A stretch of DNA of 19,043 nt from Chloroflexota bacterium (GTDB taxonomy: Bacteria > Chloroflexota > Anaerolineae > UBA1429): positions 1 through 19,043 of the forward strand of contig JAAZBY010000401.1 of the NCBI GenBank assembly GCA_012513595.1, in the 5' to 3' direction. Under the pieces are notes generated by a model. The model had not been told where the DNA came from. It saw only the letters and a list, made by a program, of their open reading frames with translations, and did not search any database. Every line of letters starts with the position of its first letter. Position 1 is the first letter of the stretch. This document shows positions 1-7,451 of the stretch, in pieces. The position numbers and the translations under genes are program-made.

Positions 1-2042
1 ACGTGGCGGCCCTGCAGGTCGATCTCACCGTTCAGCACCCACATGTTGAACACGTCGAGGCTGTCGAACTGGCGGAAGGTGACCCGGTCGACATAGGGGA
101 GCTGCTGGCCGGCGGCATCGATGCCGCCGAAGAAGGGGTTGCGCTCCAGCACAAAGAGGTCACTATCCAGCCGGTTTGTCGCCATCCAGGGATACAGCAC
201 CGGGCGCTCGGGGTTCATGTACCACTTGTCGCGCTCCCAGAAGTACTGGGTCCAGGAGGGCAGGCCGGCCTCCTCCGCGCGCCTTTGGAGCGCGTCGGGG
301 TCCTCGGCGAAGCGCGCATGGAACTGGCGCATATAGTGGGACGGTAGGAAGGGCTCGGCCGAGTTCTGCTGGTGCATGAACACCGGGAAGCGATGGGCAA
401 AGCGTATGACCACGGTGAGGTCGTCGGGCACCTCCAGGCTCATGAGCACGGGCGGCTCGCCCGTCGCATAGCCCCGGGCTGCGCCCTGGGTGAGGTCCTT
501 GTCGCGGATGACCTCCTCGTACCACCAGCGCACGTCCTCGGAGGTGAAGGGCTGCCCGTCGGACCAGCACAGCCCATCGCGGAGGTGCACGGTATAGGTG
601 GTGGCCTCGTCGTTCACCTCCCAGGCTTCGCAGAGGTCGGGGCGCAGGCTGAGGTCGGGGTTAAAGTGCGTCAGGCTGGTGGCCACCCACTTGGACGCGC
701 CGCCAAAGTCGCTCCGGCCGGCGACGGCCCTGCGAATGGTGCCCCCGTACCGGCCGATGGTCTCGGCCACCGGGTACAGGGATGGAATGCGGGGGAGCCG
801 CTGTTCCACCGGTGGGAGCAGGCCGGCGGCGACGCGCTCCGCAAGCAGGGGCGCCTCGCGAAAGACGAGCGGTCGCCGTTCGAGCGTTGTGGCGGGCTCC
901 CCGGGCGCCGCTGCCGCAGGCGCCTGCGCCGGGGCTTTGCCTGCCGGTGCAGACGCAGCGGCCACCGGCGGGCAGACGGCGGCCAGGCTGCTGGCCGCCA
1001 CCAGGCTGGTCATGCGCAGGAACTGCCGCCGGGAAAGAGCGGCCTGGTCCGCAGGCACTGCAGGCGCTGGGGCCACCGAGTATACGAAGCGCCGCGGTGC
1101 ATTCGCGCGCTCGGGAAGGGCGGGCGTGGGCCAGGGCCGGGCTGCGGCGGGCCGTGCGGCGACGCCGGCGGCCGCGCGCACAGGCTGAGGGGCGTGCCGC
1201 TCGCGCAGGGCGTGCTCGGCGTCGCGCAGGGCGGCGGCGAAATGCGGAGGGGCCGCCTCGGCCTCGCGGAGGTTCCAGGCGCCCAGAGCGTCGCCGACGT
1301 AGGCGCGGCACAGGTCCCCGCGCAGGATGCTGGACTGGAAGAGGACGCGCCGGCCGCGGGCATCCAGACCGAGGTGTTCCAGCAAAAGGGCGGGCAGGCC
1401 CGCGCGCAGCCCCAACAAGTAGGCTTCCAGAGAGCCGAGCGCCGTGGGCTCCAGACTCTCCGCGTAGAAGACGATGCCGGCCCCCTCAGTCGACGAGACC
1501 GCTGCGGCCAGGTCCTGCCCGGCCGCACACTGCTTCAACAGGGTGGGGAAAAGCGCCTGGGGCAGGTAGGCGTGCTGCACGGCGGCCGGGGTGCCATCGA
1601 GGGTCAGAAGGTGCTGGATCCAGATGATGCGCTCGAGCGCGGAGAGGGCCAGTAACTGGCGGACGTCCTCGGGGACGTCGCCGCTGCCGCAATCGGTCAG
1701 GAGCAGCTCCACGTGTCGCCCTGCGCCGCGCCAGATCCCGGCCAGGTCGGCCAGGCGCGGCCCGGGGCCACGGGCGGCCACGAAGGTGCCCCGGCCCTGC
1801 ATGCGATCGAGCACGCCCTGGCGGACGAGGTCGTCCAGCCCCTTGCGGACCGTATCGCGGCTGAGGCCCGTAAGGGCCATGAGCTCGCGCTCCGAGGGGA
1901 TCTGTTGACCGGGCTGCCATTCGCCGCTGCGGATGCGGCGGAGCAGGGAACGGCCCAGGGAGCGGTACAGAGGCAGCCCAGGCGCCTCGGGGGCGTCGGC
2001 GGGGGGCGCGTCAAGTGGCGGCGGTTCCTGGTCGATCCTCAT
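1..2042 (-). CDS. GntR/UTRA regulator fused in frame to a Tat-signal family-5 ABC substrate-binding protein (partial)
   Basis: The frame is open from an ATG at 2042 to the window edge (680 codons, no stop; C-terminus missing); I translated it codon by codon. Residues 25-90 are a GntR winged helix (IPSERELMALTGLSRDTVRK, then GRGTFV). Residues about 105-248 match a UTRA effector domain of the HutC type. An Ala/Pro/Arg-rich linker follows. A twin-arginine motif SRRQFLR lies at 337-343, followed by a hydrophobic stretch and a degenerate lipobox (AAVC). From about 395 it resembles peptide/oligosaccharide-binding proteins (GRYGGT, WSDGQPFTSEDV, LPYVDRVTFR, NGEIDLQGRH near the edge). Third codon positions stay mostly G/C through the linker, which supports real coding. 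A GAGG precedes this ATG; an upstream ATG at 2075 lies beside the operator and has no ribosome binding site. Separate translation of the binding protein from an internal GTG is possible but no good site is seen. Confidence 0.85.
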   Translation of the reverse strand, partial: MRIDQEPPPLDAPPADAPEAPGLPLYRSLGRSLLRRIRSGEWQPGQQIPSERELMALTGLSRDTVRKGLDDLVRQGVLDRMQGRGTFVAARGPGPRLADLAGIWRGAGRHVELLLTDCGSGDVPEDVRQLLALSALERIIWIQHLLTLDGTPAAVQHAYLPQALFPTLLKQCAAGQDLAAAVSSTEGAGIVFYAESLEPTALGSLEAYLLGLRAGLPALLLEHLGLDARGRRVLFQSSILRGDLCRAYVGDALGAWNLREAEAAPPHFAAALRDAEHALRERHAPQPVRAAAGVAARPAAARPWPTPALPERANAPRRFVYSVAPAPAVPADQAALSRRQFLRMTSLVAASSLAAVCPPVAAASAPAGKAPAQAPAAAAPGEPATTLERRPLVFREAPLLAERVAAGLLPPVEQRLPRIPSLYPVAETIGRYGGTIRRAVAGRSDFGGASKWVATSLTHFNPDLSLRPDLCEAWEVNDEATTYTVHLRDGLCWSDGQPFTSEDVRWWYEEVIRDKDLTQGAARGYATGEPPVLMSLEVPDDLTVVIRFAHRFPVFMHQQNSAEPFLPSHYMRQFHARFAEDPDALQRRAEEAGLPSWTQYFWERDKWYMNPERPVLYPWMATNRLDSDLFVLERNPFFGGIDAAGQQLPYVDRVTFRQFDSLDVFNMWVLNGEIDLQGRH

Positions 2043-2075
2043 CGGAGCCTCGATCTCGCCTGGGCGATGGATCAT

Positions 2076-2087
2076 TGGTACGTACCA
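2076..2087. promoter_or_regulatory. Candidate operator palindrome, copy 1
   Basis: TGGTACGTACCA is a perfect 12-bp palindrome just downstream of the -10 box of the GntR/SBP fusion promoter, covering the expected transcription start. The identical 15-mer TGGTACGTACCAGTC occurs at the second copy. Palindromes of this kind are typical GntR-family operators, so autoregulation is the natural inference. Confidence 0.75.
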
Positions 2088-2092
2088 GTCCC

Positions 2093-2121
2093 ATCATCTC
2101 ACATCGCCACAGACTTGTCAA
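2093..2121 (-). promoter_or_regulatory. Promoter of the GntR/SBP fusion gene
   Basis: On the minus strand, TTGACA (2116-2121) is followed by a 17-bp spacer and GATGAT (2093-2098, four of six consensus bases). The expected start near 2086 falls in operator copy 1. This gives a leader of about 44 nt to the ATG at 2042. Confidence 0.65.
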
Positions 2122-2135
2122 GGTCTTGGGGCAAA

Positions 2136-2147
2136 TGGTACGTACCA
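2136..2147. promoter_or_regulatory. Candidate operator palindrome, copy 2
   Basis: This is an identical TGGTACGTACCA palindrome 14 bp upstream of the -35 box. Its centre is exactly 60 bp from copy 1. The promoter is thus bracketed by two identical sites, which would suit looping or cooperative repression by a dimeric regulator. Confidence 0.75.
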
Positions 2148-2186: not shown

Positions 2187-5100
2187 CTAGCGCAGCTGCC
2201 ACACCTGCGTGGCCATCACGTTGATCTGGGTGAGGAACCGCTCCACCTTGCCTTCGACCATCAGGATCTGCCCCGTGGCCCAGGCGCTGCGATGTAGCTG
2301 AAAGACGTCGGGCCGCACGATGACGTTCAGCAGCCCGAACTCGTCCTCCAGGGTGAGGAACACGAACCCCTTGGCGGTGGGCGGCGCCTGGCGCACCACC
2401 ACCAACCCCGCCACCTGGACGGTTTCGCCCAGGGAGGTGTGGGCCAGGTCCTGGCTGGTGATGGCCCCCAGCCGCTCCATCTGCTCGCGGTAGGTCTCCA
2501 TCAGATGTCCCTCGGCCGAGAGCCCCGTGGCGCTGTACTCGGCCAGGAGCTCCTCCTCGGCCGTCATCGGCTCGAGGTCGAGGGGGGCGGCGGCGATGTA
2601 CTCCAGGGGCAGGGCCTCCTCTTGGTAACGCAGGCCGCCCAGCTCCCAGAGGAGCCGCCGGGCGTCTGGCTCCCATTCCTCCATCCCCTTGGCCAGGATG
2701 GTCCGCTCTACCAGGCGGCGGGGCAGCCGCGTGCGCCGGCAAAAGTCTGCCAGGCCGAGGAAGGGGCGCTCCGCGCGGCTTGCTAGGATGCGCTCGATGG
2801 CCGCATCGCCCAGGCCGTCGATGTACGTGTAGCCGAGGCGGATGGCCCCCTCCTCGATGGTGCACTCGGCCAGGCTGCGGTTTACGTGCACGGGGAGGGT
2901 GCGCACCCCGTGCTGGCGAGCATCCCCCACCAGGACGCGCGGCGCATAGAACCCCATCGGCTGGTTGTTCAGAAGCGCGCAGTAGTACTCGGCAGGATAG
3001 TGGGCGCGGAGGTAGAGGGTGTCGTACGAGGTCTTGGCAAAGGCGGCCGCGTGGCTTTTGCAGAACCCGTAGGAGGCAAAGCCGGTGAGGCTGGTGAACA
3101 CCTGCGAGGCGGTCTCTGCGGGGACCCCTTGATCCAGGGCGCCGGCCATGAAGCGATCGCGAAAGGAGGCCATCTCCTCGCTGGAGCGATGGCGCGACAT
3201 GGCCCGCCGCAGCATGTCCGCCTCGCCGGCGCTGAACTGCCCCATGGCCATGGCGATGCGGATCACCTGTTCCTGAAAGACCACCACCCCCAGCGTCTCC
3301 TTGAGGATCGGCTCCAACAGCGGATGGGGGTAGGTGACCTCCTGCAGGCCCAGGCGTCGCTGGAAGAAGGGGTAGACCATGTTGCCCTGCAACGGGCCCG
3401 GGCGGATCAGGGCCACCTCGACGACGATGTCGCTGAAAACGCGTGGCTGCATCTTGACCAAGGCCTGCAGCTGGGCGCGCGACTCGACCTGGAAGGCACC
3501 CACCGTATCGGCCCGCTGGAGGGCTTCGTAGACGGCCGGGTCGTCGAGCGGCAGACGGTCGAGGTTCAGGCGCAAACCGTGGTGCTCCTCCACGGCGCGC
3601 AGGGTCTCGTCGATGGCCGCCAGGGTGCGCAGGGAGAGGATATCGGTTTTGATCAGCCCCGAGTCTTCGACGGAGTCCTTGTCCCACTGGATCACCACGC
3701 GCCCCGGCATGGTGGCGCGCTCCAGGGGCACGAACTGGGTCAGCGGGGCACCGGTGATGCACATGCCGCCGACGTGGATGCTCAGGTGCCGGGGCAGGCC
3801 CTGGATCTCGTCACACAGGCCCAGAAAGCGCCGCCAGACGCGGCCCGATACGCCGTCGGGGGCCTCAAGCGTGTCTTCGGTGGCCTCTTCGATGCCCAGC
3901 CGCGAAATCCCGCGCATTCGCTTGGCCAGGCCGTCGAGGACGTCCTGGGCCATGCCCAGGGCCTTGCCCACGTCGCGCGCGGCGCTGCGCTTCCGGTAGG
4001 TGACATAGTTGCACACCATGCCGACGTGGTCCTCTCCGTAATGCTGGTAGACGTACTGGATGACCTCCTCGCGGCGGCGGGCGCAAAAGTCCAGGTCGAT
4101 ATCGGGCATGACGCGCGACTCGGCGCTGAGAAAGCGCTCGAAGAGGAGGTCGTGGGCCAGGGGATCGACGTTGGTGATCCCCAGCAGATAGGCGACAATC
4201 GAATTGGCGGCCGAGCCCCGGCCGCGCACCTGGATGCCCTGCTCTTTGGCGAACCCGACGATCTCCCACACCAGCAAAAAGTAGCCGGCCAGGGCCGTCG
4301 TGCGGATGACGGCGAGTTCGTGGCGCATCTGGGCCTCGGCGGCGGCCCGACCGGTGCCCTCGGTGGGGTCCGACCCGTAGCGCACGTCGAGCCCGGCCCG
4401 GCACAGTTCGGCCAGGCGCTCGTCGGCCGACTGGCTCCCGGCGTGGGCGTGGGGGGGCAGGGCCTGTTCGCGGAAGGCGATCTCCACCCGGCAGCGGTCG
4501 GCGATCTCGAGAGAGTTGGCCAGGGCCTGCGGATAGTCGGCAAAGAGGGGGGCCAGCTCGTCGGCGGACTTGAGATACCATTCGGAGTTGGGGCGCAACC
4601 ACTCCTGGGCATCGTCGAGGGGCACGTTGTGGTCGATGGCTTTCAACACATCGGCCAGGCGATGGCCGTCGCGCTCGGCATAGTGGGTGTTGTTAGTGAC
4701 CACCAGGGGGAGCCCGGCCTCCGCCGCCAGCTCTGCCAGGGCGGCCGCCAGGGCGGCGTCTTCGCGGAGGAAGTGATTCTGCATCTCCACGTAGAGATAC
4801 CCGGCGGGAAAGATCTGCTGCAGCTGACGCAGGGCGGCCCGGGCGGCGTCGCGCTCCCCGGCCAAGAGCGGGCGCGCCAACGGCCCCTGGCGGCAGGCCG
4901 TCAGGGCGATAAGCCCCTCGGCGTGCCCGGGCAGCAGCGAGAGCGGCAGCCGCGCGTGCCCCTTGCTCTCGGCCAGCTGCGCCTGGCTGATCAGCCAGCA
5001 GAGGTTGGCGTAGCCCTGGCGGTCCTCGGCGAGGAGGACGAGGTGCTCCTCGCTGGTGAGGGTCAGCTCGGCCCCCAGGATGGGGCGCAGGCCGCGCTTC

Positions 5101-5267
5101 TGGGCCTCGGTGGAGAAGCGGACCGCCCCGTACAGGCCGTCGTGGTCCGTCAGGGCCAGGGCCGGCATGCCCAGGGCCAGGGCGCGGTCGAGGAGCGCCT
5201 CGGGGGTCGAGGACCCATCGAGGAAAGAGAAACAGGAGTGGCAGTGCAGCTCCACGTAGCCGCTCAC
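2187..5267 (-). CDS. dnaE2: Error-prone DNA polymerase DnaE2 (ImuC)
   Basis: 1026 aa, a C-family DNA polymerase that does the synthesis in the ImuA-ImuB-DnaE2 translesion pathway. The N-terminal PHP domain has HCH at 8-10 and DHD at 41-43. The palm has GRGSAANS and the catalytic acidic motif PDIDLDF at 388-394. Later come RPGPLQGN, a helix-hairpin-helix-like stretch (GLGDAAIERIL) and a C-terminal OB fold (AGLVVVRQAPPTAKG to the end). It is shorter than replicative DnaE and has no obvious tau-binding tail, as expected for DnaE2. I chose the GTG at 5267 because it gives the conserved PHP start and overlaps the upstream stop codon as GTGA, with a GGAGCG upstream. A longer frame to 5447 only overlaps the upstream gene in another frame. 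It is the last gene of the SOS operon. Confidence 0.95.
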   Translation of the reverse strand: MSGYVELHCHSCFSFLDGSSTPEALLDRALALGMPALALTDHDGLYGAVRFSTEAQKRGLRPILGAELTLTSEEHLVLLAEDRQGYANLCWLISQAQLAESKGHARLPLSLLPGHAEGLIALTACRQGPLARPLLAGERDAARAALRQLQQIFPAGYLYVEMQNHFLREDAALAAALAELAAEAGLPLVVTNNTHYAERDGHRLADVLKAIDHNVPLDDAQEWLRPNSEWYLKSADELAPLFADYPQALANSLEIADRCRVEIAFREQALPPHAHAGSQSADERLAELCRAGLDVRYGSDPTEGTGRAAAEAQMRHELAVIRTTALAGYFLLVWEIVGFAKEQGIQVRGRGSAANSIVAYLLGITNVDPLAHDLLFERFLSAESRVMPDIDLDFCARRREEVIQYVYQHYGEDHVGMVCNYVTYRKRSAARDVGKALGMAQDVLDGLAKRMRGISRLGIEEATEDTLEAPDGVSGRVWRRFLGLCDEIQGLPRHLSIHVGGMCITGAPLTQFVPLERATMPGRVVIQWDKDSVEDSGLIKTDILSLRTLAAIDETLRAVEEHHGLRLNLDRLPLDDPAVYEALQRADTVGAFQVESRAQLQALVKMQPRVFSDIVVEVALIRPGPLQGNMVYPFFQRRLGLQEVTYPHPLLEPILKETLGVVVFQEQVIRIAMAMGQFSAGEADMLRRAMSRHRSSEEMASFRDRFMAGALDQGVPAETASQVFTSLTGFASYGFCKSHAAAFAKTSYDTLYLRAHYPAEYYCALLNNQPMGFYAPRVLVGDARQHGVRTLPVHVNRSLAECTIEEGAIRLGYTYIDGLGDAAIERILASRAERPFLGLADFCRRTRLPRRLVERTILAKGMEEWEPDARRLLWELGGLRYQEEALPLEYIAAAPLDLEPMTAEEELLAEYSATGLSAEGHLMETYREQMERLGAITSQDLAHTSLGETVQVAGLVVVRQAPPTAKGFVFLTLEDEFGLLNVIVRPDVFQLHRSAWATGQILMVEGKVERFLTQINVMATQVWQLR

Positions 5268-5518
5268 TCGTACACTCGCTCCAGGTACCAAGCCTCGAGG
5301 AGGCGGTCGTAGTACAGGGTGCAAAGGAGGCCCGTCTCGGTGGTGACCTCCCAGTAGTCGCGCCAGACCTCGTGATCGGTCCACCAATGGGTGTGCACGC
5401 GCCAGCGATAGAGGACGTCGCTGATCGGATGCCAGCGCCACTGCCAAAAGAACTGCCCGGGCTGCGCCTCTTGCTCCTGGGCGCGCACGAGCAGGCCCTC
5501 CTGCCAGAAGGGGCTCAT
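5264..5518 (-). CDS. Small aromatic-rich protein of the imuB-dnaE2 cassette (DUF6504-like)
   Basis: 84 aa, very rich in Trp and Tyr (for example FFWQWRWHP, HTHWWTDHEVWRDYW), acidic at the C-terminus, no signal peptide or membrane segment. Its start overlaps the imuB stop (ATGA) and its stop overlaps the dnaE2 start (GTGA), so it is translated as part of the cassette. From memory, small proteins of the DUF6504 type sit at this position in actinobacterial and other imuB-dnaE2 loci; I could not confirm the match. Its biochemical role is unknown. Location and coupling suggest an accessory or bridging factor between ImuB and DnaE2, which is inference. Confidence 0.85.
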   Translation of the reverse strand: MSPFWQEGLLVRAQEQEAQPGQFFWQWRWHPISDVLYRWRVHTHWWTDHEVWRDYWEVTTETGLLCTLYYDRLLEAWYLERVYE

Positions 5519-6696
5519 GGCTGGAACTCCTGCAGCCTGTAACGATGCCCGCAGCCGAGGGGGTTGTGGGGGGCCACCAGGCAGGCGCGTACCACGCAGC
5601 TGGCGGAGTGTTTGCGGGTTAGCTTGCGCAGGGTGCCCTCCAGGCGCTGGTTGCCCTCAGAATGGGCGAAAAGGCTGAGCTGCCGCCCCACCCAGGGCGC
5701 CAGGCCCACCAGGCGCACCCAGGCCTCCATCACGCCGTGGCCGCTGCCCCCCACCTGGGCCAACAATCCCTCGAGGATGGCCTGGAGCCTGTGGGGGGCC
5801 AACAGGTCGCCCACCCAGGCGGAACGCACCACCGCCTCCCCATCGGCCAGGCGCGCCTCGAGCTCTACCCGGCGGACGGCCAGGCCGCCGCGCTTCAGGT
5901 CGCCCAGAAGGCGCTCGCTGGCGGCGCCCAGCGCGGCCAAGAGCGGTTCCAGGCGGGCCTCGGGCGTGGCGAACTCGACGTGCACCTCCCGCACCTTCTG
6001 GGGCTGGCCGCGGAGGGGGCGTTGGTCATGCGCCTGAGCCAGCCGATGGGCGGGCAGGCTCTCGGCGCCGAACTGCTCGGCCACCGCGGTGGAGGAGAGG
6101 GCCGCGAACTGGCCCATGGTGCGGATGCCCAGCAGCGCCATCCGACGCAGGGGCTCCTCGTCGAGGGGTAGCCAATCCACCGGAAAGGAGAAGAGATAGG
6201 CGCGGTCGCCGCTGGATACGAGGCGATAGCCGGGCCCGAACTGGCTGGAGCGGGCCGCTACCAGGGCGGCAAACTTGGTGCCCGCGATGCCAACGTTGAT
6301 CTTGACCTGGAGGCTCTGCCAGGCCTGCTGGCGCAGCGTCTCACACCAGGTCTCCTCGTCGCCATAGAGCCGGCCCATGCCGGCCGCCTCCAGGTAGGCC
6401 AGGCCCCAACGGTCGGCGTCGACGCTGGGGCTGTGCTGGCCCAAGAGCTCCAGCAGCGCTTCCCAGGCCTCCTGGTAGTGGGGCAGGTCCGCCGGGATGA
6501 CGCAGGCATCCGGGCAATGGGCCACCGCCTCGGAGACGGTCTCACCGGCCAGGGCGCCCAGCGAGGCGGCGCGGGCACAGGTGCCCAGCACCCGCTCCTC
6601 CTCGGCGATGATCAACGGGCGCATCTCCGTCTCGTGGCGGCTCCGCTCGATCTCGGCGACGAAATAAGGGACGTACGCGCAGGCGATCCGTGCCAT
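5515..6696 (-). CDS. imuB: ImuB, Y-family polymerase-like mutasome scaffold
   Basis: 393 aa. It has the Y-family fold order (N-terminal palm, helix-hairpin-helix region near GIRTMGQFAALSS, little finger) but degenerate catalytic residues. The first acidic motif is replaced by ACAYVPYFVAEIE, and the usual S-I-D-E is SVDAD at 91-95. This matches known ImuB proteins, which are non-catalytic adaptors. A canonical beta-clamp binding motif QLSLF lies at 339-343, followed by a Cys-containing C-terminal tail of the kind that binds partners. The start is the ATG at 6696, preceded by GAGGGG and 2 nt after the imuA stop. A longer upstream frame to 6951 overlaps imuA and is not coding. The stop overlaps the next gene by 4 nt. 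Confidence 0.93.
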   Translation of the reverse strand: MARIACAYVPYFVAEIERSRHETEMRPLIIAEEERVLGTCARAASLGALAGETVSEAVAHCPDACVIPADLPHYQEAWEALLELLGQHSPSVDADRWGLAYLEAAGMGRLYGDEETWCETLRQQAWQSLQVKINVGIAGTKFAALVAARSSQFGPGYRLVSSGDRAYLFSFPVDWLPLDEEPLRRMALLGIRTMGQFAALSSTAVAEQFGAESLPAHRLAQAHDQRPLRGQPQKVREVHVEFATPEARLEPLLAALGAASERLLGDLKRGGLAVRRVELEARLADGEAVVRSAWVGDLLAPHRLQAILEGLLAQVGGSGHGVMEAWVRLVGLAPWVGRQLSLFAHSEGNQRLEGTLRKLTRKHSASCVVRACLVAPHNPLGCGHRYRLQEFQP

Positions 6697-6698
6697 GC

Positions 6699-7451
6699 TT
6701 ACCCCTCGAACACCGGCATGTGTACCAGCAACGACTGTCCCTCCGTGCTGGCCATCTTGTTCTTGAGCACCGTGATGCGCGTATGAAAGCCGGTCAGGCG
6801 CCGGTAGGGCCACAGCCAGGACTGCCACTCGAACCCGAGGCGCACGCTGGCGAAATAGGGTAGGGTGAGTTCGACGGGATAGGCGGCCAGGGAGGTGACC
6901 TCGGTCAGGAAGATCAGGGCGCAGAGCGAGCGGCTCAGCAGGGTGTTCCATTCGCGGAGCGAACGATCCAGCAGGCCATAGTCAGGCTGCGCGGGGCCCT
7001 CGTACTGATTGTCGAGGCGGTCAAAGAGGATCACCCCGGCGCCCCCCTCGACGATGAGGTCATGGGTCATCTCCAGGGCATGGCCAAAGTTAAGCGGCCG
7101 CAGGATGGCCAGCGAGTCAAAGCACACCTCACTGTGGGAGAGCATGTCCAGGTCGATGGCCTGGGTCACGTCGACATAGACCACCTGATGGGCGGCTCGT
7201 TGCTCCAGGGCCAGGGTGCGGGCTACCAGGGTGCCCCGCCCGGAGGTTCCTGCGCCGACCAGCTCGGTCATGCGCCCCTGGGGCAGCCCGCCGATGCCCA
7301 ACAGGCGGTCGACATCGGGAAAGCCGGTGGGCAGAACGGGCCCCCACCCTGCGCGCCCGCCGCCGCCCCGGAAGAGGGCTCGTTGTCCGTAGCGGAGGCG
7401 GGTGGCTTCTATAACGGCGTCAAGTTGTGTGTCGTGGGTACACTTTTCCAT
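6699..7451 (-). CDS. imuA: ImuA, RecA/SulA-like mutagenesis protein
   Basis: 250 aa, first gene of the SOS cassette. It has a RecA-like ATPase core: TGFPDVDRLL, then a P-loop-like GAGTSGRGT in which Arg replaces the Walker A Lys, then a beta strand VVYVDV and a Walker B-like VILFD. The family (ImuA/ImuA') interacts with ImuB and RecA during translesion synthesis. The start ATG at 7451 has GAGGTGA at ideal spacing, and the transcript leader is only about 10 nt. The Lys to Arg change suggests weak or absent ATP hydrolysis; this is inference. Only 2 nt separate it from imuB. Confidence 0.88.
   Translation of the reverse strand: MEKCTHDTQLDAVIEATRLRYGQRALFRGGGGRAGWGPVLPTGFPDVDRLLGIGGLPQGRMTELVGAGTSGRGTLVARTLALEQRAAHQVVYVDVTQAIDLDMLSHSEVCFDSLAILRPLNFGHALEMTHDLIVEGGAGVILFDRLDNQYEGPAQPDYGLLDRSLREWNTLLSRSLCALIFLTEVTSLAAYPVELTLPYFASVRLGFEWQSWLWPYRRLTGFHTRITVLKNKMASTEGQSLLVHMPVFEG

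Follow-up and report, generated by a model that had tools for sequence, protein, structure and literature searches.

DasR and NagR (YvoA) are described regulators of the GntR/HutC family, in which a winged helix is followed by a UTRA domain. In the available text of PMC4918961, Arg38 and Arg48 of NagR read two guanines, the phosphate in DasR is held by Thr99, Ser175, Leu176, Tyr177, Arg142, and Arg144, and the sugar contacts include Ser97, Tyr98, and Glu154. Other HutC proteins in that text can replace missing pocket arginines by others in space. GT and AC are 4 nt apart in most HutC sites, and the consensus centre is TA (PMC4494728, available text). The protein considered here is encoded at one end of a window of 19,043 nucleotides, the whole stretch of Chloroflexota DNA that was analysed, and its winged helix and UTRA domain stand in the order of the family. 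Residues 23–245 align with DasR (E 4.4e-22), the two guanine-reading arginines are kept, and the operator-like site TGGTACGTACCA is, at the sequence level, a HutC-type palindrome with GT-N4-AC. In contrast, the protein adds a solute-binding protein (SBP) with an export signal, the second arginine of Arg-x-Arg and other pocket residues are changed, and the centre of the operator is CG instead of TA.

SgrR, which is cytosolic and has no signal, and DsvR are regulators with a C-terminal family-5 binding domain. The C-terminal SBP_bac_5 of the SgrR family is present in the fusion. However, the fusion has GntR-UTRA instead of SgrR_N, which is absent among the 10 Pfam families listed for the window protein up to E 1, and a Tat signal lies between the halves. 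ToxR/CadC-type transmembrane regulators may resemble the fusion in having a cytoplasmic DNA-binding half, a possible external sensing half, and one short membrane segment, but the segment of the fusion is a Tat signal. The terms GntR, SBP, solute, and Tat do not occur in the main text of a survey of transmembrane regulators (PMC10269533). The available text of a survey of transcription-factor companion domains (PMC5882156) contains GntR 10 times, and SBP or UTRA not once.

The second half of the fusion resembles the Tat lipoprotein SBPs of Chloroflexota (P0003 and P0014) and SPH1118. The SBP part of P0002, the second fusion described below, is 64% identical to P0003, and the fold is that of SPH1118. 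The close unfused relatives differ in having an N-terminal signal with a lipobox and their own ribosome site. A Tat signal that is not N-terminal is also found in a Streptomyces Rieske protein, where it moves the C-terminal domain out (PMC13186574, available text). That signal belongs to a polytopic membrane protein, whereas a soluble DNA-binding half precedes the signal of the fusion. The Rieske protein is the nearest case in the literature text available, which contains no description of a Tat substrate whose signal follows a folded DNA-binding half. No GntR-SBP fusion is described in the titles and abstract beginnings listed in searches of an open-access library. Regulators with an SBP-type sensor are a known class, and the union of GntR-UTRA with SBP_bac_5 through a Tat joint appears to be new.

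The fusion gene and its occurrence

The frame in the ORF list starts at ATG 2042 and continues without a stop to the window edge, which truncates the SBP part (Table 1). It comprises a GntR winged helix, a UTRA domain, a linker, a Tat-type signal with SRRQFLR, and SBP_bac_5, in this order. The Pfam matches to GntR (E 4.9e-18), UTRA (2.1e-15), and SBP_bac_5 (3.7e-26) all exceed the curated cut-offs. An alternative in-frame ATG at 2075 is a less likely start, because it lies about 11 nt past the transcription start inferred from the -10 hexamer, whereas ATG 2042 has GAGG at 5 nt. Codon-position GC has a coding pattern in the regulator and SBP parts and a fainter one across residues 241–420. This region is rich in alanine and proline, so a frame break there is neither shown nor excluded by the GC signal. 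The earlier note had read the frame as one unbroken polypeptide with SRRQFLR at residues 337–343, and both points are confirmed by the stop-free frame, the Pfam domains, and the same order in P0002.

Table 1. Positions of the fusion gene, its parts, and its control elements in the window
Feature	Position	Strand	Remarks
-35 hexamer TTGACA	2116..2121	-	Consensus match; 17-nt spacer
-10 hexamer GATGAT	2093..2098	-	Consensus match
Operator-like palindrome TGGTACGTACCA	2076..2087		Spans the inferred transcription start, 5 nt downstream of the -10
Second TGGTACGTACCA copy	2136..2147		60 bp from the first copy, ahead of the -35
Ribosome-binding site GAGG	2048..2051	-	5 nt before ATG 2042
GntR-UTRA-Tat-SBP_bac_5 fusion gene	3..2042	-	680 codons, 3' end beyond the window; ORF, Pfam, same order in P0001 and P0002
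GntR winged helix, residues 25–88	1779..1970	-	Pfam; both arginines equivalent to the GG readers of NagR are kept
UTRA domain, residues 108–243	1314..1721	-	Most phosphosugar-pocket residues changed
Pro/Ala-rich unconserved linker, residues 284–332	1047..1193	-	11/49 identical to P0002
Internal Tat-type signal, residues 333–366	945..1046	-	SRRQFLRM, hydrophobic stretch, degenerate lipobox LAAVC, A-x-A
SRRQFLR twin-arginine motif, residues 337–343	1014..1034	-	
Solute-binding domain, family 5, N-terminal part, residues 392–680	3..869	-	Pfam match 466–676

P0002 is a complete fusion of 983 aa with the same domain order, and is 59% identical to the window protein over 99% of the query. It is the translation of the 3277-base contig JAAZBQ010000058.1 (L001) of a Chloroflexi MAG (genome G001, 4.1 Mb). 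Downstream of its stop, a ribosome-site-like stretch and then an ATG are seen by eye. This complete copy in a second lineage bears out a real fusion, and an assembly or frameshift artefact is ruled out. A further protein, P0001, has 830 aa, the same domain order, and 98% identity to the window protein. It probably belongs to the window protein's own cluster and is therefore not independent support. Its similarity ends after about residue 773, as by a frameshift, and this allele may be damaged late in the SBP.

A whole-query search of about 5.8 billion proteins, with the best 7992 candidates scored, yields 10 matches, two of which (P0001 and P0002) have the fusion architecture. A search with the SBP half yields 65 proteins, with GntR/UTRA in the same two only. 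The protein searches scored the best ~8000 candidates by shared words, so more distant fusions may be missed. Within G001, 39 places match P0002 and one covers both halves. Searches with the regulator half in 41 and 400 genomes of the phylum (in the 400, E ≤ 1e-20 and the best 7 or fewer candidates per genome scored) give a frame longer than 700 aa in G001 only, and the next longest frames have 671 and 464 aa. The SBP half (E ≤ 1e-140, best 3 or fewer candidates per genome scored) matches in 2 of the 400 genomes and is fused in G001 only. In 60 relatives, with the best 21 or fewer candidates per genome scored, 8 frames exceed 800 aa among the SBP matches listed: that of G001 and 7 others. None of the 7 shows a Pfam domain ahead of its signal at E ≤ 0.01, though one of them (L070) resembles an HTH protein by eye. 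No match to P0003 is found at E ≤ 1e-5 near the unfused regulators in 14 regulator loci of 8.5–20 kb.

The fusion is rare yet retained over a distance of 59% identity. The two fused lineages probably derive from one fusion event kept in both, because they share RRQFLRMT and the same pocket changes. With a single origin probable, contrasts between fused and unfused proteins are not independent events. A real obligate fusion is very likely.

The joining of a regulator to an SBP is possibly repeated in L070 (G040 contig 77, 940–3402, minus strand), unless a sequencing indel is responsible. An HTH-like frame, MerR-like by eye and with no Pfam match at E 0.01, runs stop-free there into a Tat-SBP5 with its own TAAGGAGG-ATG and a lipobox. 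In L024 (G001 contig 795), a LacI-type regulator gene lies directly before an SBP5 gene on the same strand. Regulator-SBP fusions could arise from this gene order.

Promoter and operator

The two fusions have a common promoter layout, TTGACA-17-GATRAT followed after 5 nt by TGGTACGTACCA, with GATAAT as the -10 hexamer in L001. The distance from TGGTACGTACCA to the start codon is 33 nt in the window and 32 nt in L001. Besides its two copies, the 19-kb window contains no further match within 2 mismatches. The exact 12-mer occurs at one place in the 4.1-Mb G001, with ~0.11 expected from base composition. Near-matches in G001 were rejected as sites, since at up to 2 mismatches they number 43 versus 34 for the reversed control, which is background. 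The position and sequence of the operator, common to two lineages, suggest that the fusion protein is in all likelihood an autorepressor of its own single operon.

Among the 14 unfused relatives of the regulator, one (L043) has AGGTACGTACCA upstream of its probable start, and the longest frame there extends past the site. It heads a gene run of an aldolase, a GH4 protein, an SIS protein, and two PfkB kinases. A loose GGT-N4-ACC lies upstream of 6/14 unfused regulators, a count without a chance control. Upstream of the fusion gene, positions 2187–7451 of the window (minus strand) carry, according to Pfam, genes for a DnaE-type polymerase, an ImuB-like Y-family protein, and a RecA/ImuA-like protein, which probably form an imuA-imuB-dnaE2 mutagenesis cassette.

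The regulator and the solute-binding domain

The winged helix is 69% identical between the window protein and P0002, and the UTRA domain 46%. Both fusions have the equivalents of Arg38 and Arg48; in the unfused relatives, Arg48 is kept in 14/14 and Arg38 in 10/14. The DasR pocket positions were transferred through a pairwise DasR alignment and a MAFFT alignment. At these positions, Ser97 and Tyr98 fall in a gap in both fusions, which have alanine or valine at Thr99, leucine at Arg144, aspartate at Ser175, and alanine at Tyr177. The Arg142 position is histidine in the window protein and arginine in P0002, and the Glu154 position is glutamine and glutamate, respectively. The unfused relatives (n = 14) retain R144 in 13, Y177 in 12, S175 and S97 in 10 each, and T99 in 9, and have phenylalanine at Tyr98 in 10. 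The Arg-[VLI]-Arg effector motif, common but not universal in GntR/HutC, is absent from both fusions, its second arginine being leucine in both, arginine in 13/14 unfused relatives, and valine in the other. To judge by these residues, the known phosphosugar chemistry of the UTRA domain is largely gone in both fusions. This makes doubtful the suggestion of the earlier note that one ligand domain lies on each side of the membrane. Given the replacement of arginines in other HutC proteins, the fusion UTRA may bind another ligand.

The SBP part present in the window is 75% identical to P0002. The closest PDB sequences are 5ipw, SPH1118, and 6epy. An AF2 model of P0002 (38 sequences) has a mean pLDDT of 77.6, with the SBP mostly above 90 and the UTRA domain and linker poor. 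Since it is poor over the N-terminal half, pocket and topology are not readable from this model. Foldseek with the model places 5ipw first by E-value, and the highest target TM-score among the 50 listed is 0.91 for 7veu, which is SPH1118 with galacturonic acid. SPH1118 is reported to serve chemotaxis and assimilation, its closure varies with substrate size, and contacts with chemoreceptors and the transporter are proposed (PMC9314435, available text). An SBP of this fold may thus signal. A relative in L055 (G365) is accompanied by Opp-type ATPases and permeases, GH4, and an oligogalacturonate-lyase-like gene. An acidic oligosaccharide is a plausible ligand of the fused SBP. As to a permease neighbourhood of the fusions themselves, the window ends inside the fusion gene and L001 just after it.

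Other observations concern the SBP family at large. At least 21 places in the 4.1-Mb G001, the fusion included and some perhaps fragments, match the fusion SBP part at E ≤ 1e-30. In the same genome, the SBP5 gene of L028 adjoins a uroporphyrinogen-decarboxylase-family gene, and that of L025 lies within about 2 kb of one. In L055, a B12-binding/radical SAM gene follows the transporter. The unfused P0003 and P0012 are nearly identical past residue 210 or so of P0012, but their preceding parts are dissimilar, as recombination would leave them. P0012 and the fused P0001 come from contigs of equal length (68763) and may thus be paralogues on one contig. P0052, P0056, and P0058 comprise a family-5 SBP and permease domains in one polypeptide, with PF19300 in 3/3 and PF00528 in two.

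The Tat segment and the topology of the protein

The linker is 22% identical between the window protein and P0002 (11/49, or 11/41 aligned residues). The signal is 50% identical, and SRRQFLRMT is the same in both fusions, which favours a role as an anchor beside so diverged a linker. Both fusions have the features of a Tat substrate, namely the S-R-R-x-F-L motif and a hydrophobic stretch, and TatC is present in G001. The binding domain is probably exported. The mean hydropathy over 15 residues is 1.79 and 1.91 in the fusions and 1.33–2.15 in the cleaved signals of relatives. The stretch is therefore no more hydrophobic than cleaved signals, which argues against an anchor.

SBPs of family 5 that are lipoproteins have an N-terminal signal with a lipobox; this is absent from the fusions, where the signal is internal. 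The lipobox [AS]-Cys is found in 16/16 close unfused relatives with a Tat signal and in 0/2 fusions, which have V-Cys (window) or no cysteine (P0002) at its position. The close set was drawn from 22 unfused SBPs with E up to 1e-150; 6 of them were set aside, since they lack a Tat motif or have their listed start within the protein. The Fisher value of this contrast, 0.0065, ignores the probable common descent of both fusions. Of 48 more distant proteins, a Tat-like signal is present in 19, with the lipobox Cys in 8/19 and absent in 11/19; a signal that has lost it may therefore simply have become one for signal peptidase I. A binding domain that is anchored, uncleaved, and sensing outside is a more tentative proposal than export itself, at somewhat less than even odds, because the distant unfused relatives are often without a lipobox too.

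Cleavage, an alternative raised in the earlier note, may instead take place: the protein would be exported by Tat and then cut by signal peptidase I at the A-x-A found behind the hydrophobic stretch of each fusion (ASA in the window, AGA in P0002). The SBP would then be free or only loosely held, the GntR-UTRA stub would stay tethered to the membrane or be degraded, and repression would be coupled to SBP synthesis and export and not to a ligand. The 11 distant signals without the lipobox Cys resemble substrates of this peptidase, but the retention of the lipobox in all 16 close relatives speaks against such a course, which is rather unlikely.

It is also unlikely that the fused binding domain stays inside as the ligand domain of a cytosolic regulator of the SgrR kind, with the Tat segment as a relic. 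A DNA-binding domain followed by SBP_bac_5 is the order in SgrR and DsvR (PMC13060122, available text), the lipobox is lost, and the signal has given up its N-terminal position. With the UTRA pocket changed, a new ligand domain in the cytosol would also make sense. However, the twin-arginine block is identical and a hydrophobic stretch is retained beside a linker that has diverged, and SgrR_N is missing from the Pfam families noted above.

A neutral or decaying accident, in which the fusion is on its way out and has no joint function, is improbable. It would account for the rarity of the fusion and the late disruption of P0001, and the losses of pocket and lipobox could be decay. Against this stand the conservation of both end domains (GntR and SBP), a promoter and operator conserved in position and sequence, and a P0002 that is intact to its stop, with the ribosome-site-like stretch directly after.

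Start codons bear on the remaining possibility, that of two proteins from one frame. The earlier note had named, as evidence against a fusion, homologues with the halves always in separate genes and a conserved start just before SRRQFLR; this pattern was not found. In the unfused Tat-SBPs, a start codon with a ribosome site of 4 nt or more lies 4–11 codons ahead of the motif in 15/15 motif sites, taken from 12 unfused loci of which some were chosen for long frames; the fusions have such a start in 0/2. Matches of 4 nt can arise by chance, but 13/15 of the unfused sites have 5 nt or more. A second, internal initiation directly ahead of SRRQFLR is highly improbable. In its favour, a GTG with a 3-nt match stands one codon upstream of the motif in L001, and the HTH-like frame of L070 enters a Tat-SBP with its own TAAGGAGG and ATG. 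The starts of the fusions themselves have ribosome sites of no more than 4 nt, which makes a weak internal site conceivable. Against it, neither of the two GTG codons of the window, 8 and 14 codons before the motif, is preceded by a ribosome site, and a free SBP made in this way would no longer have its lipobox.

The preferred reading, at somewhat less than even odds overall, has a boldest form with a probability of roughly one in three (0.36), in which the SBP of a transporter became the sensor half, the Tat signal an internal anchor after loss of the lipobox, and the GntR half a direct reader of external sugar across the membrane, while the cytoplasmic pocket decayed. The interpretation in the earlier note, which already had the Tat segment as a possible internal anchor, is partly supported. 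A GntR dimer would bind TGGTACGTACCA over its own promoter and repress the sugar-uptake operon. Tat signals leave the N-terminus inside, and this one would insert as an N-in/C-out anchor that keeps GntR-UTRA on the cytoplasmic side and places the folded solute-binding domain outside the cell. With the lipoprotein cleavage site lost, the halves would stay joined, and the UTRA domain, without most of its phosphosugar pocket, would serve mainly dimerisation. The external domain may close on an oligosaccharide, perhaps acidic or pectin-like, alone or docked on the permease, and so weaken repression. The net effect would be a membrane-bound one-component regulator made from the transporter's own binding protein.

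If this is true, a membrane-spanning one-component regulator has been assembled from two very common parts, with its sensor placed by the Tat pathway. The protein would offer a tractable test of whether Tat inserts a protein with a large folded DNA-binding half before the signal. The same test would bear on how a single fusion can shift sensing from a pocket in the cytoplasm to a binding protein outside.
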